Shown here: positions 3,541-41,011 of the stretch, piece after piece | How the letters are laid out: the number at the start of each line of letters is the position of its first letter | Numbering within the stretch: the stretch's first letter is position 1 | Assembly: GCF_000429945.1 (NCBI RefSeq) | Contig: NZ_AUCV01000039.1 | Coordinates: forward strand, 1 to 60,293 | DNA from: Desulfogranum japonicum DSM 18378 | Lineage (GTDB): Bacteria; Desulfobacterota; Desulfobulbia; Desulfobulbales; Desulfobulbaceae | Direction of reading: 5' to 3' | Length of the DNA stretch: 60,293 nt | The notes under the pieces: generated by a model | Told to the model about the DNA's origin: nothing | Seen by the model: only the letters and a program-made list of their open reading frames with translations | Database searches by the model: none | Made by a program: the position numbers and the translations under genes

Positions 3541-3636
3541 GGGACGCGGGAAAAGTGAGAATGAGTTGAGAGAGCAATAGGATAGGATACATTATTTTGT
3601 CCGTGACCCTAAAGCCTCTGAATAGGCATAATTGTT

Positions 3637-3787
3637 AGGAGCCTGTCGGAGAAAGCTCTTTTACCTTATATTTATGTTATTTTTCAGAAAATCAATGCTT
3701 GCAATATCCAAGTATATGGCTGTGCTTGATTGATTTCCTGAAAATATCTTAATCTGAGAAAAAATAGCAATTCTCCGACAGACTCCT
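3637..3787. mobile_element. MITE-like element, copy 1
   Basis: This 151-base non-coding element has nearly perfect 17-base terminal inverted repeats: AGGAGCCTGTCGGAGAA at 3637-3653 and TTCTCCGACAGACTCCT at 3771-3787. An inner inverted pair (TCAGAAAATCAA against TTGATTTCCTGA) lets the whole unit fold into a long imperfect hairpin. A near-identical copy lies at 35992-36136. The structure fits a miniature inverted-repeat transposable element mobilised by a transposase encoded elsewhere. It lies between the VanY-like gene and thiD, about 140 bases before thiD. Confidence 0.8.
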
Positions 3788-35991: not shown

Positions 35992-36136
35992 AGGAGTCTG
36001 TCGGAGAAAGCTCTTTATCCCCCATATTTGTGTTATTTTCAGAAAATCAATGTTTGCAATATCTACTATATGGCTGTACTTGATTTCCTGAAAATGCCTT
36101 AATCTGAGAAAAAAAGCAATTCTCCGACAGACTCCT
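35992..36136. mobile_element. MITE-like element, copy 2
   Basis: This 145-base element has the same terminal inverted repeats as copy 1 (AGGAGTCTGTCGGAGAA at 35992-36008; TTCTCCGACAGACTCCT at 36120-36136) and nearly the same interior, differing by a few substitutions and small indels. The internal string ATGGCTGT and the CAGAAAATCAATG / CTTGATTTCCTGAAAAT blocks are shared. It lies between the SH3 gene and the end of the convergent helicase gene. Two near-identical copies 32 kb apart indicate recent mobility. Confidence 0.8.
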
Positions 36137-36249: not shown

Positions 36250-39180
36250 TTAGTTTTTTTGACGTTGCAAAATGTTACGTATAGCATCATGAATGTTCAC
36301 CGGAAGCCGAACTGTATTTCCAGCCTTATTTTGAAATAGCAGATGGTGCTTCCGGTATGCAAAGAGAAACAGATTTTTTGTTATCTTCACATCCTGTAAA
36401 CAGTACGCACTAAGTTTTTTCATCTCTCCTTTCCTATACCATTCAAGGGCCTGAAGACCGTTTCCTGATTTCTTAATTCCCAATGTCTTTTCAGCCAATC
36501 GATCCAGGCTCAATCGATATCCTAATTGCGTGTGAATAACCTCCAGAAGGTCCAGTGAAGGGAAGGTCGAAAGAGGTATGTCCGTATATGCTGATAGCAC
36601 CTTGTTGTCAAAGCGTTTATTATTAAAGCCAACAACCAGGTCAAAGCCAGCGAGGTGTTCCAGGAATTTTTCGATATTATTTTCTTCATAAGAAAAGTAT
36701 CTGTCTTGGACGCTGTCGTAGAGCACTGCAACGCTGATACCCATGAGATGGCATCGGTGCCAGCCGCCGACCTCCTGAGCACTTTTTTGCGTTTCCAGAT
36801 CAAAAACTCCGAATCGCAGATTTACAAGAATGCTATCCTCCTGTGCATCAGGGATGTTTGAAGGAGAGAGGCTTGTTACCCCTTGTTTTTTGATATCTGG
36901 AGATCCACTTGGCCTCAGTATGCTGGCCAGAATGTTTGTACAGGCCTGTTTATCTATGGGGCGATTTCCAGATCCACATTTAGGAGAATGTACACAACTG
37001 GGACATCCCGTATGGCATGAGCAGTTTTTTACAGCCTTCAGTGTTTCTGGGAGGAGCTTTTCCAGAGAGGCGAAACCTTCACGTGTTAGTCCCATACCAC
37101 CGGCATATCCATCGTATACAAAGACCGCTGATGCATTGAGTTGTTGATTCCAGGGAAATGATATCCCGCCAATATCGTTTCTGTCGCAGAGAACAAAAAG
37201 AGGTAAAAGCCCAATTATTGCGTGTTCCATGGCATGGATGCCACCCATGTAATGCAACTGTTCAGCATCTATTTCGTGTTTCAAGGTATCTGGAAAGACT
37301 ATCCAAAAGCCCTCTGTTTCATAAATAGTTGCAGGAAGGTCCAAGGGGGTTTTACCTATAACTCGTTGGTTTCCATGAAGAATGCGCAGGTATGAGGTTA
37401 CCTGCTCACTTACACGAAGCATACCAAAACAGACAGTGGCTCCAGGAAGTTCTTTCTGATCATAAATCTGAAGAATCTCTGTGTTTTTTTCAGTCAGCGC
37501 TTTAGTGTAATATCCTCCTTTGAAAGGAGATAGGAGAACATTTTGATTTTCCAGATCGAGATGATTAACAAGATATTGCTTCGCCATATGTAAATATACC
37601 GCACCTGTATGGCATTCTGTATACACTCTGTGTCCATCCACATCGCCAAAAGATTTTTTCTCACCTTTTTTGTACAAATTGAAGTGTGCCCCACCGCCAC
37701 GAAGATGTACATGTCGTTGCGGGAATTTTCGAGCTGCATACCAGATATCTCCGTTAGCTGACTGGAGCAGATCTCCAGAGAGGGTGAGTTCCGTCAACAC
37801 CGTGAGATGTTCATCCAGAGTTAGGATTTCTTCCCCTTCACGCAGAGGTATTTCTGCCGCAGCACAAACCAGGTGTTGTCTGGTTATAGTCTGATTGCGT
37901 GGGTTAATTATGACAGGTTCAACCGGGCGGGTATAGAATTCTTCCGGATTGCGCATAAAATATTGATCCAGAGCGTCTTCATGTCCTATGAGAATAACCA
38001 GTGATTTCTGACCTGACCGGCCAACACGTCCTGCCCTTTGCCAGGTAGCCATCATGCTGCCAGGGTAGCCGACAAGAATGCATATATCCAGATTGCCGAT
38101 ATCGATACCAAGTTCCAGTGCGGAAGTGGAAATAACTGCAAGCAGATCTCCTGAAGCCAGTCTGTGCTCTATGTCTCTACGGTCTTCAGGAAGAAAGCCT
38201 GCTCTATAAGATGCTGTGAGATGCTTTTCAGCTGGCATCCTTCTTCCTATCCACATGGCGATAAGTTCTGTCATTTTACGGGATTGAGTATATACAATGG
38301 TCCTGAGCTTTCTCCTGATCGCAGATTCTACAAGTGCAGTTGCAGCACCGGCTGCCGAATCTATCGGGTTAAGAAGCGTTATATGTTTGGGAGCAGTTTT
38401 CGCGCCTGATTCAGATATGGCGACAAAATTCAACCCTGTTAGTTCTCTGGCCAGTTCCTGAGGATTGCCTACCGTGGCGGATGCGAGAATAAATATTGGT
38501 TGAACAGCGTAATATTCACATATTCTACGAAGTCGTTTTAAAAGCCATGAAACATGAGATCCGAAGATCCCTTTGAAAGTGTGCACTTCATCGATGACAA
38601 TATAGCGTAATTTGGAAAAAAAATGTGCCCATTGTTCATGATATGGTAACAGTGCAAGATGCAGCATATCCGGGTTGGTTATGAGAACCCTTGGAGAATT
38701 CTTTCGTATCTTGCTCCTTTTGTATGCCGATGTGTCGCCATCATATATTTCGGCAAATGGAATATTTTGTGGGATGTTATCTCTAAGCTTGGCCGCCATT
38801 GTTGTCAGTGATCTATGTTGATCCTGGGCCAGAGCTTTGAGTGGAAAAAGATAGAGAGCCTTATGCTGTATTTCATCCTGCAAGGCGTGGAGAAGGACCG
38901 GGAGATTGTATACCAGACTTTTTCCGGAAGAGGTCTGGGTCGAAATAATGATATTTTTACCAGCAAGGATGTTTTCGATACTCTTGTATTGATGAGAGTA
39001 AAGAGAATGCAGGCCAATCTTTTCAAGGATTTGCTGGAGGGTATGGTGAAGAGAAATGGCAGAGACCGTCTGCTCTCTATTTCCAGAAATGAGTTTATGG
39101 GCAATAAGCTGCTGGCTGAACCTCTCTGAATTCTTCATTGCTTGAAGATATTCGTCGACATTTTCCTGTATGCTGGACAT
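36250..39180 (-). CDS. MrfA/YprA-like DNA repair helicase fused to an MrfB/YprB-like exonuclease
   Basis: This 976-residue protein has two parts. Residues 1-770 are a DEAD/DEAH helicase of the YprA/MrfA kind: Walker A STQTSSGKS (about 81), DEVH in VIDEVHTF, SAT in ILASATVG, and motif VI QRAGRVGRSGQ. A Cys-rich zinc domain (DUF1998 region) follows with CSCHTGCPSCVHSPKCGSG near residue 720. Residues 800-976 are an RNase H-like exonuclease related to YprB/MrfB, with FDLETQKSAQEVGGW (D-x-E), VVGFNNKRFDNKVL and LSAYCLQDVKITKNL. In Bacillus these are two proteins, MrfA and MrfB, that repair mitomycin damage. Fusion suggests the same role here. Confidence 0.87.
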   Translation of the reverse strand: MSSIQENVDEYLQAMKNSERFSQQLIAHKLISGNREQTVSAISLHHTLQQILEKIGLHSLYSHQYKSIENILAGKNIIISTQTSSGKSLVYNLPVLLHALQDEIQHKALYLFPLKALAQDQHRSLTTMAAKLRDNIPQNIPFAEIYDGDTSAYKRSKIRKNSPRVLITNPDMLHLALLPYHEQWAHFFSKLRYIVIDEVHTFKGIFGSHVSWLLKRLRRICEYYAVQPIFILASATVGNPQELARELTGLNFVAISESGAKTAPKHITLLNPIDSAAGAATALVESAIRRKLRTIVYTQSRKMTELIAMWIGRRMPAEKHLTASYRAGFLPEDRRDIEHRLASGDLLAVISTSALELGIDIGNLDICILVGYPGSMMATWQRAGRVGRSGQKSLVILIGHEDALDQYFMRNPEEFYTRPVEPVIINPRNQTITRQHLVCAAAEIPLREGEEILTLDEHLTVLTELTLSGDLLQSANGDIWYAARKFPQRHVHLRGGGAHFNLYKKGEKKSFGDVDGHRVYTECHTGAVYLHMAKQYLVNHLDLENQNVLLSPFKGGYYTKALTEKNTEILQIYDQKELPGATVCFGMLRVSEQVTSYLRILHGNQRVIGKTPLDLPATIYETEGFWIVFPDTLKHEIDAEQLHYMGGIHAMEHAIIGLLPLFVLCDRNDIGGISFPWNQQLNASAVFVYDGYAGGMGLTREGFASLEKLLPETLKAVKNCSCHTGCPSCVHSPKCGSGNRPIDKQACTNILASILRPSGSPDIKKQGVTSLSPSNIPDAQEDSILVNLRFGVFDLETQKSAQEVGGWHRCHLMGISVAVLYDSVQDRYFSYEENNIEKFLEHLAGFDLVVGFNNKRFDNKVLSAYTDIPLSTFPSLDLLEVIHTQLGYRLSLDRLAEKTLGIKKSGNGLQALEWYRKGEMKKLSAYCLQDVKITKNLFLFAYRKHHLLFQNKAGNTVRLPVNIHDAIRNILQRQKN

Positions 39181-39328
39181 TCGCTGGTATTTTTATTAAC
39201 GTTCTGCGGATTTTTCTGGAAGATCACGTGGGATACAGAGGATCTGCCGGAATGGGTTATAACGATGTCGTTTACCATACTCCTTTTCGTTTAGCCCGAT
39301 TTTCTCCTTTACAGCAAGGTTTTTCAAT

Positions 39329-41011
39329 ATGTTTACAATAGCCACTTTGGGGCCCGAGGGCTCTCCTGCCTGGGCCGCCGCCAAACAGTTCGATCAGCAG
39401 GCATCCATTCAAACCTGTACCAGTATTGCGGAAATACTCAGAGCATTTAACCAAAAAGAGATCGATTGTATCCTTCTCCCTGTATATAACACACGTGAAG
39501 GTGACAATAAGCAATATTTCCGATTGTTTGAGATGCTTAAGCACGGTTATTGGATCGATAATGTCATTATACATGCTGATCTGTCACTCGGTGTGCTTGA
39601 TGCGTCGATAGATATAGCTGATATTAGATTACTTGTCGGACGCGGGGAAACCTTTAGCCAGGGAGCAGATTATATTGATCTTCATTTTTCCGACATTCCA
39701 CAGATGCATGTCAGCAATGTGCAAGATGAGATTGAAAAATTTCGTGAGCAAGGTGACATGTCTATAGGATTTATAGAGTCTTTAGAGACGTTGCAAAACG
39801 AAAAACTGTCCATTCTTGAAAGGGGTATAGCTACACATAATAGGACAAGATTTGCTGTTTTTGCACATAAACTTGCTAAGCCCTCAGGATATGATGCTAC
39901 TACTTTTGTTACTGTTCCTCTAGATGATAGGGTCGGACTATTGGTTGATATCCTTCGGGAATTTTCTAACCGTGGAATCAATATCGTCGATATGAGAACG
40001 GAAAATCATGTCGCCACCCAGAAATTGCAGATATATATTGAGGCTGAGGGGCATATTCAACAGAAGCAGATGCAGGATGCCATTACCCATGTGGAAACTC
40101 AAGTCATTCAGCAAAAGGGAGCAATTCGCGTACTGGGAAGTTTTCCACGTATTGATATGCGTACCAAGCATATCAGGTCTTTCGGTTTTATTGGCACCGG
40201 AGATATGAGTAAATGGTTTGCCGACAGACTGGAAAGTGAAGGGTATGATGTATTCCTTACCGGTCGCAGTACTCCTTTGCGCCCTGAAGAAATGGTCCGT
40301 CACGTTGATGTGGTGGTTATTTGTGTGCCAATTTCTGTAACAGCCAGGACCATTGCCAGTATCGGCCCTTTGTTGGCAAGTAATAAAGCTCTTATTATCT
40401 TGGCTGGAGAATCTGAACAGAGTATTAATACAGCATTATCGGTTACCAATGATGATGTAGAGGTGATGTTAGTTCATAATCTGTGGGGACCACAGGCCGC
40501 CACTATGAAAGACAAAAATGCTATTATTGTCAAAACATCACGAAGTGGTTTGCTCTGTGCCGAGTTCGAAGCGTTTCTATACAAGCATGGTGCCGATATT
40601 TATCAGGATTCTGCGCAAAAGCATGATTTGCTAATGGGGGTAGGGCAGAAATTGCCAACAGCCATTTCTGTGGCATTGGCTCTGACGTTGCATGAAAATA
40701 ATATCACCAGTGAAGATTTGGCCAGCCATTCAACGCTGACATCTCTGTATCCTATTCTTGCCATGGCGCGGGTTCATTCACAGAATCCTCGTACTTATGC
40801 TGAGATATTGTCCACATCTGGAGATGGTCGGAAGATTGTTGTCGATTTTATACGTAATTTTGAAAAAATCATGCAAATAGCCGGACAAGCTGATATTGAC
40901 AGTCTGTCTGCTCTCATTCAGCAAAATGCGGAACAATTTGATGATGCATTTTTAGAAGCACGGATGGTACAGGCCAAAGCTGTGGATAACGTTCTTGGCA
41001 AGATGATGTGA
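39329..41011 (+). CDS. Prephenate dehydratase-like / ACT / prephenate dehydrogenase fusion
   Basis: This 560-residue protein joins three modules. Residues 1-180 are prephenate-dehydratase-like, starting IATLGPEGSPAWAAAKQF and carrying the catalytic-region NRTRFAVFA near residue 170. The family's conserved PIENSxEG-type segment reads LPVYNTREGD, so dehydratase activity needs testing. An ACT domain follows (DRVGLLVDILREFSNRGINIVDM). The C-terminal TyrA-like dehydrogenase (about 285-540) has FGFIGTGDMSKWFADRL, VVICVPISVTARTI and LVHNLWGPQAATMKD with the catalytic-region His. Together these would make phenylpyruvate and hydroxyphenylpyruvate from prephenate, controlled by phenylalanine or tyrosine through ACT. 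There is no chorismate mutase module. Confidence 0.85.
   Translation: MFTIATLGPEGSPAWAAAKQFDQQASIQTCTSIAEILRAFNQKEIDCILLPVYNTREGDNKQYFRLFEMLKHGYWIDNVIIHADLSLGVLDASIDIADIRLLVGRGETFSQGADYIDLHFSDIPQMHVSNVQDEIEKFREQGDMSIGFIESLETLQNEKLSILERGIATHNRTRFAVFAHKLAKPSGYDATTFVTVPLDDRVGLLVDILREFSNRGINIVDMRTENHVATQKLQIYIEAEGHIQQKQMQDAITHVETQVIQQKGAIRVLGSFPRIDMRTKHIRSFGFIGTGDMSKWFADRLESEGYDVFLTGRSTPLRPEEMVRHVDVVVICVPISVTARTIASIGPLLASNKALIILAGESEQSINTALSVTNDDVEVMLVHNLWGPQAATMKDKNAIIVKTSRSGLLCAEFEAFLYKHGADIYQDSAQKHDLLMGVGQKLPTAISVALALTLHENNITSEDLASHSTLTSLYPILAMARVHSQNPRTYAEILSTSGDGRKIVVDFIRNFEKIMQIAGQADIDSLSALIQQNAEQFDDAFLEARMVQAKAVDNVLGKMM

Follow-up and report, generated by a model that had tools for sequence, protein, structure and literature searches.

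In Bacillus subtilis, the helicase MrfA (YprA) and the exonuclease MrfB (YprB), which act on mitomycin lesions, form the closest described pair to the gene studied here. According to the accessible text of two reports, MrfA is a 3′-5′ DNA helicase and MrfB a 3′-5′ DNA exonuclease (PMC12458937, PMC11194089). In particular, the parts of the second that were available describe MrfB as a DEDDh enzyme (His258) that carries an insertion at its N-terminus and a TPR domain at its C-terminus, report that mrfA and mrfB are epistatic, and present a predicted complex in which the 3′ end comes close to the site of MrfB (PMC11194089). Moreover, a 2025 preprint mentions, in its accessible text, YprA helicases fused to MrfB/YprB homologs within a DNA-repair branch, so that fusion as such is not new (PMC12458937). 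The window analyzed here, a 60,293-nt stretch of the Desulfogranum japonicum DSM 18378 genome (contig NZ_AUCV01000039.1), carries at positions 36250-39180 of the minus strand a gene for a 976-aa protein in which a YprA/MrfA-type superfamily 2 helicase is joined to a DEDDy 3′-5′ exonuclease-like domain. We consider it fairly probable that this protein is a second helicase plus 3′-5′ exonuclease machine doing an MrfAB kind of job, separately assembled and fused as one chain. With a little less assurance, the balance tips towards YprA helicases and DEDD exonucleases having been assembled at least twice, as the split DEDDh MrfAB and as the fused DEDDy form, the two being mutually exclusive and the fused form a non-orthologous substitute for MrfAB; this type of machine was seemingly built more than once because the fused exonuclease comes from another branch of the superfamily than the known partner. 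A separate nuclease lineage, a separate helicase branch and non-overlap with MrfB are what is added beyond the known fusion. A search of titles and abstract openings, with most subscription papers and all supplements beyond reach, found no other literature on a helicase-exonuclease fusion of this kind.

The gene is one ATG-started open reading frame, and all of its parts lie on the minus strand. The helicase half (residues 1-757; 36910-39180) contains Pfam DEAD (62-242, E 2.1e-31), Helicase_C (288-390), a WHD_HRQ1 winged-helix domain (PF22982, residues 425-495, E 8.3e-9; 37696-37908) and an MZB zinc-binding domain (PF09369, residues 652-730, E 2.6e-21; 36991-37227), all over the cut-off. The zinc-domain cysteines 720, 722, 726 and 729 show no variation across the 24 rows of alignment A2, which combines the window protein with 23 of 52 long frames found in the nuclease search. 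The sequence alignment with B. subtilis MrfA (6znp) covers residues 43-732 (E 1.7e-143), and an AlphaFold2 model of the full protein, calculated from a 24-row alignment with a mean predicted local distance difference test score (pLDDT) of 82.6, superposes on 6znp with a Z of 30.5 and a root-mean-square deviation of 6.5 over 727 aligned residues (35% identity). By its domain order and its whole-length MrfA fold, the window protein belongs to the YprA/MrfA helicase family, in agreement with a first-pass annotation of the sequence, which had described an MrfA/YprA-like helicase with a zinc domain. A linker of predicted disorder (residues 758-785; 36826-36909), whose mean pLDDT is 30 at residues 761-770 and 33 at residues 771-780, leads to the nuclease domain (residues 786-976; 36253-36825), where Pfam RNase_H_2 (PF13482) matches residues 831-938 (E 6.7e-8, 33 bits, cut-off 22).

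Judged from its motifs and its modeled fold, the C-terminal domain is a member of the DnaQ-like DEDD exonuclease superfamily. The three motifs listed by the first-pass annotation are all present, FDLETQ starting at residue 793, GFNNKRFDNKV at 851 and YCLQDVKIT at 926, and they supply Asp-794 and Glu-796 of Exo I (FDLET; 36793-36801), Asp-858 of Exo II (GFNNKRFD; 36607-36609) and Tyr-926 to Asp-930 of Exo III (YCLQD; 36391-36405). All five catalytic residues are invariant in A2 and in the 32 rows of alignment A1, which consists of the window domain and 31 of 53 true nuclease rows (55 were found, two of them false and inside prephenate genes). The model places the Exo I pair D794/E796 on strand 1 and D858 on a helix, with Y926 and D930 sharing one long helix. 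Sequence-only searches of the PDB with the nuclease had best E values of 0.085 (T7 polymerase) and, in another run, 0.29 (unrelated proteins), which is unusable, and a fold comparison was therefore required. Residues 791-976, modeled alone with 31 relatives, reach a pLDDT of 96.6, and the closest folds among the matches listed are the 3′-5′ exonuclease domains of PolB-family and T7 DNA polymerases (Z 13.8-14.9 over about 150-165 residues; Foldseek E 2e-6). The T7 alignment pairs model residue 1 with T7 residue 2 at its start; an ungapped strand 1 would place D794/E796 on T7 D5/E7, the mutated pair named in the title of 6n7w. The set containing Tyr-926 and Asp-930, together with the polymerase exonuclease matches, therefore indicates a site of the DEDDy type, and the earlier expectation that the acidic residues can form a DEDD-type site is borne out by their invariance and by the model. 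Further, leaving aside domains shorter than 150 aa or below 100 bits, Tyr occupies the Exo III position in 91 of 91 distinct fused-type domains (90 by pattern, one by eye), and the full D-E-D-Y-D set is found in 90 of these 91, two of which are stand-alone copies.

By motif, domain content and profile, this nuclease is not MrfB. All 26 distinct MrfB sequences examined have His at Exo III; the Exo I pattern matched 22 of them and the Exo II pattern 17. The MrfB Exo I signature LDTETTGL..GGTG, whose columns are invariant in 15 MrfB rows, is absent from the window domain. The window protein has no Pfam TPR match up to E 0.01 and its chain stops 46 residues past Asp-930; the MrfB of L092 has TPR matches below the Pfam cut-off. 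The same L092 MrfB scores 138 bits against RNase_H_2 over the whole length of the model (1-164), compared with 33 bits over positions 42-161 for the window domain. The best family-library match of the window nuclease is PHROGs phrog_403 ('DNA polymerase exonuclease subunit'), at 60 bits (2.8e-16), compared with 41 for L098 and 26 for MrfB. In profile comparisons, the fused set matches Bdellovibrio phage phi1422 gp06 with a probability of 98.3%, the stand-alone DEDDy group with 96.6%, a cyanophage polymerase exonuclease region with 94.0% and MrfB with 84% (pairwise E 7.6e-6), and the stand-alone DEDDy group matches MrfB with 97.8%; this ranking is only indicative because the alignments are shallow, with an effective sequence number (Neff) of 2.1 for the fused set and single sequences or four rows on the other side. 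MrfB thus appears as a relative of the fused nuclease, yet on these sequence comparisons other relatives are nearer. MrfB (8UN9) is absent among the fold-search matches listed, which says nothing of a difference in fold. The description of the domain as MrfB/YprB-like in the first-pass annotation therefore holds as to a DEDD-type nuclease and fails as to MrfB identity.

Related nucleases also occur outside the fusion. Two stand-alone copies, L095:6612-7268 (minus strand) and L100:4367-4930 (plus strand), have no helicase in the retrieved stretch. The nuclease tree, which is poorly resolved, rooted by hand and has a phage row with a branch of 5.45, was used only for placing these copies and puts them among the fused domains, which suggests that the helicase half was lost or the nuclease half duplicated. 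Several genomes of the phylum contain a separate stand-alone DEDDy family of about 250-370 aa with a FIHLPGVG-type N-terminus (L098, L105, L094, L099 and L102), which we take to be perhaps a helix-hairpin-helix. When viral contigs were scanned with A1, 24 stretches scored a match and all were unrelated. Among plasmid records, none reaches 80% coverage of the fused protein; the nuclease alone matches one cyanobacterial plasmid protein and three records of two phages.

The helicase half has a lineage of its own. A tree of 59 hand-chosen rows was calculated with 37 fused helicases, seven nuclease-less ones, 13 mrfAB rows including B. subtilis (in one of them, L146, MrfB is on a different contig) and two outgroups. 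The 37 fused and seven nuclease-less helicases share one branch, with a Shimodaira-Hasegawa-like approximate likelihood ratio test (SH-aLRT) support of 100, and B. subtilis MrfA branches with 10 split-type helicases, also with a support of 100; the MrfB-linked helicases L134 and L135 form a branch of their own. A tree in which the fused helicases are forced together with MrfAB to the exclusion of the nuclease-less ones is worse by 61.7 log-likelihood units and is rejected by the approximately unbiased (AU) test (p-AU 7.3e-11). On this tree, the fused helicase half is outside the branch holding B. subtilis MrfA. Moreover, distances in the helicase and nuclease halves correlate (r 0.78, n = 37, 0 of 2000 permutations as high), a result that shared species history alone could yield. 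A literal fusion of MrfA and MrfB, in which the nuclease shed its TPR domain and its His changed to Tyr, would account for the helicase family shared with MrfA, for the common Pfam nuclease family, albeit at a low score, and for the profile match to MrfB; it is quite unlikely, as the helicase half lies outside the MrfAB branch, Tyr and His are each uniform in their own set, the TPR domain is missing, and the nuclease has better matches in the stand-alone DEDDy group, the Bdellovibrio phage exonuclease and phrog_403. Because the nuclease differs from MrfB and the helicase half is outside the MrfA branch, the window gene is not the direct evidence for MrfA and MrfB working on one substrate that it had been taken for.

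The survey of fused and split forms covers 297 genomes of the phylum, with cut-offs of >130 bits for the nuclease and >80 bits for MrfB. Weaker matches were dropped in 11 of 96 nuclease genomes and 23 of 64 MrfB genomes; among the 11, G121, G277 and G298 are weak matches to MrfB and G170 is a contig-end piece, maybe a cut fused gene. The fused-type nuclease occurs in 85 of the 297 genomes, and in 80 of these 85 it is part of a frame of at least 940 aa. The others are G254, G300 and G104, with shorter frames (611, 581 and 711 aa) that each also have MZB, G341, with gene pieces on two contigs, and G276, with a stand-alone nuclease of 219 aa and no MZB match in the genome. Uninterrupted fused frames are present in the isolates Desulfobulbus elongatus DSM 2908 (L033, 1003 aa), Desulfogranum marinum DSM 2058 (L039, 976 aa) and Desulfobulbus alkaliphilus DSM 24258 (L046, 989 aa). 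With unbroken frames in many assemblies and long frames in nearly all nuclease genomes, the fusion is no assembly accident, and the union of helicase and nuclease in one protein, as first annotated, is conserved.

MrfB occurs in 41 of the 297 genomes. A YprA helicase adjoins it in 14 of 20 loci examined (L106-L125, flanks of about 1.5 kb), and the genomes of the other six (G183, G233, G256, G278, G298 and G339) have an MZB match elsewhere. The pathway had been thought to be extended to Gram-negative anaerobes by the fusion; in this phylum, split mrfA-mrfB pairs already provide that extension. No genome contains both nucleases, where 11.7 of the 297 would be expected if they were independent and kinship is ignored. 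By family, the fused-type nuclease is found in 29, MrfB in 14 and both in none, compared with an expectation of 3.8 (P ~0.008, nominally 107 families). Zero co-occurrence is what functional substitution predicts, with lineage effects not removed. The genome of the window itself has no MrfB match and no further RNase_H_2 protein.

Among 57 closer relatives, a single match spans both domains in 28 (L002-L028 and L030), G045 has the two halves as two matches inside one 1023-aa frame, five are fragmented or interrupted (G008, G010, G011, G013 and G055), and 23 have weak helicase matches only or none. A scan of genome contigs with patterns from the window's own nuclease found 29 loci, all in close relatives. 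In the one-contig genome G010 (C1 1197706-1200698), the helicase half is broken into two frames meeting near residue 345, the result of either a pseudogene or a sequencing error. Frames of 1203-1247 aa around MrfB (G076, G271 and G333) were considered as fusions and rejected, the helicase being in another frame in the two loci examined, those of G076 and G333 (L145 and L144).

Several points weigh against a separately assembled MrfAB substitute. The MrfB search relied on one query sequence, and the exclusion statistics carry no phylogenetic correction, so that lineage effects remain. The exchange is not one for one: neither nuclease is found in 21 of 142 genomes with an MZB match, and an MZB match is lacking in 4 of the 41 genomes with MrfB. 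In the helicase tree, the AU hypothesis was chosen after inspection of the tree, and the root is unsure because the two outgroup rows are long-branched and do not group. All fused rows are on one side of a branch, with an SH-aLRT of only 20, which is weak for a single origin; a single fusion event is likely from the trees rather than shown. As to SOS control, four LexA-type patterns, on the plus strand only, gave none at 38,900-39,500. We know of no link of the fused protein to mitomycin, and its activities are predicted from sequence and model. Lastly, the fused protein of L152 (genome G127; L152:1149-4121, plus strand) carries Asn in place of the first and the last catalytic Asp; its nuclease is probably dead and, because of these two changes, may be dispensable in that lineage. 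L177, of the same family, retains the full catalytic set. The L152 lineage, together with the helicases of other families that share the branch but lack a nuclease, would fit a nuclease that is an accessory domain of little consequence if lost, the helicase doing the main work. This is unlikely in view of the catalytic residues preserved in all but one of the 91 distinct domains and of the similar mean identity of the helicase and nuclease halves (50% and 51%, 37 rows).

The neighboring prephenate dehydratase/dehydrogenase gene is oriented divergently from the fused gene, and tlyA and a gene for an SH3-domain protein lie close by. Across 29 loci (flanks of up to 6 kb), the prephenate gene recurs in 25, the SH3 gene in 24 and tlyA in 20, and two further neighbors, which we take to be CpoB-like and TolB-like, recur in 17 and 15. 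Such stable chromosomal surroundings resemble those of a housekeeping gene rather than a mobile defense island. In PADLOC, 60 models match the protein, and the 25 listed are all confined to the helicase part (best 169 bits), as expected of matches that reflect the shared motor. A defense-island setting was considered and is unsupported, the matches being helicase-only and the chromosomal neighbors recurrent. The protein could still be an anti-phage effector of the YprA defense branch, as in ARMADA, Druantia and TALON, with the exonuclease as executioner; several defense systems combine YprA helicases with C-terminal nucleases, as far as the accessible text describes them (PMC12458937), and the number of matching PADLOC models points the same way. 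We regard this as very unlikely, given the restriction of the listed matches to the helicase, the recurring neighbors, the compact layout with 727 residues aligned with MrfA, and an intact catalytic set, in contrast to TALON, whose RNase H domain is inactivated according to the text available (PMC12458937).

Two further features lie beside the gene. Between the SH3 gene and the fused gene is a 145-bp element (35992-36136) with perfect 17-bp terminal inverted repeats, which looks like a miniature inverted-repeat transposable element; of 105 candidate places in the genome, 40 were scored, and at least 40 places, the element itself among them, match it with 81-100% identity. One other of these copies lies within the window, at 3634-3787. 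On the other side, positions 39329-41011 encode a single 560-aa protein with prephenate dehydratase, ACT and prephenate dehydrogenase domains (Pfam), apparently a bifunctional enzyme of phenylalanine and tyrosine biosynthesis.

In the proposed mechanism of the fused machine, the N-terminal MrfA/YprA-type motor would translocate 3′-5′ on single strands and unwind damaged duplex, and the C-terminal DEDDy domain, held on a linker that is flexible and some 25-30 residues long, would trim the exposed 3′ end. Both activities would act together on the damaged strand, as in the MrfAB job, the linker taking the place of helicase-nuclease docking. A YprA helicase from a lineage that is elsewhere nuclease-less may have acquired a phage- or PolB-like exonuclease of the DEDDy type, probably in a single event in an ancestor of some members of the phylum, and the pair would then have been inherited as a unit. 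We infer in this scheme the enzymatic activities, their polarity and cooperation, the substrate, the lesion type, the replacement role and the relevance to mitomycin. A natural single-chain version with another nuclease lineage and no TPR domain offers a test object that would not need docking, and lets one ask whether a YprA helicase plus any 3′-5′ DEDD exonuclease is enough. Further, the non-overlap with MrfB yields a directly testable complementation prediction; complementation is described as requiring alleles that are close relatives (PMC12458937).

Overall, the fused protein resembles B. subtilis MrfA (YprA, 6znp) over the whole helicase half, from DEAD and Helicase_C through the winged helix to MZB; MrfA is a separate protein in the split-type branch, whereas the fused helicase groups with a nuclease-less lineage. 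It shares with MrfB (YprB, 8UN9) the DnaQ-like DEDD superfamily and the predicted role of a 3′-5′ DNA exonuclease partnering a YprA helicase, and differs from the MrfB of the available description, a DEDDh enzyme that has a TPR domain and an insertion at the N-terminus, in being DEDDy, in having no TPR domain and in its Exo I motif. The fusions of the 2025 preprint are of the same general kind, and its accessible text does not specify DEDDy versus DEDDh, the exact fusions or the taxa (PMC12458937). TALON-type YprA differs in the C-terminal RNase H domain, inactivated according to the same text (PMC12458937) and with an intact catalytic set in the window protein; for TALON that text also describes a BrxA-like insertion after RecA1 and operon partners that are TOTE-like. 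Bdellovibrio phage phi1422 gp06 has a GW-x5-MGIS stretch in common with the fused nuclease and is a stand-alone protein with no fused helicase. As far as the accessible descriptions go, S. aureus DinG and WRN likewise combine a 3′-5′ exonuclease and a superfamily 2 helicase in one chain, but they belong to other helicase families, and SaDinG carries its exonuclease at the N-terminus and unwinds 5′-3′.

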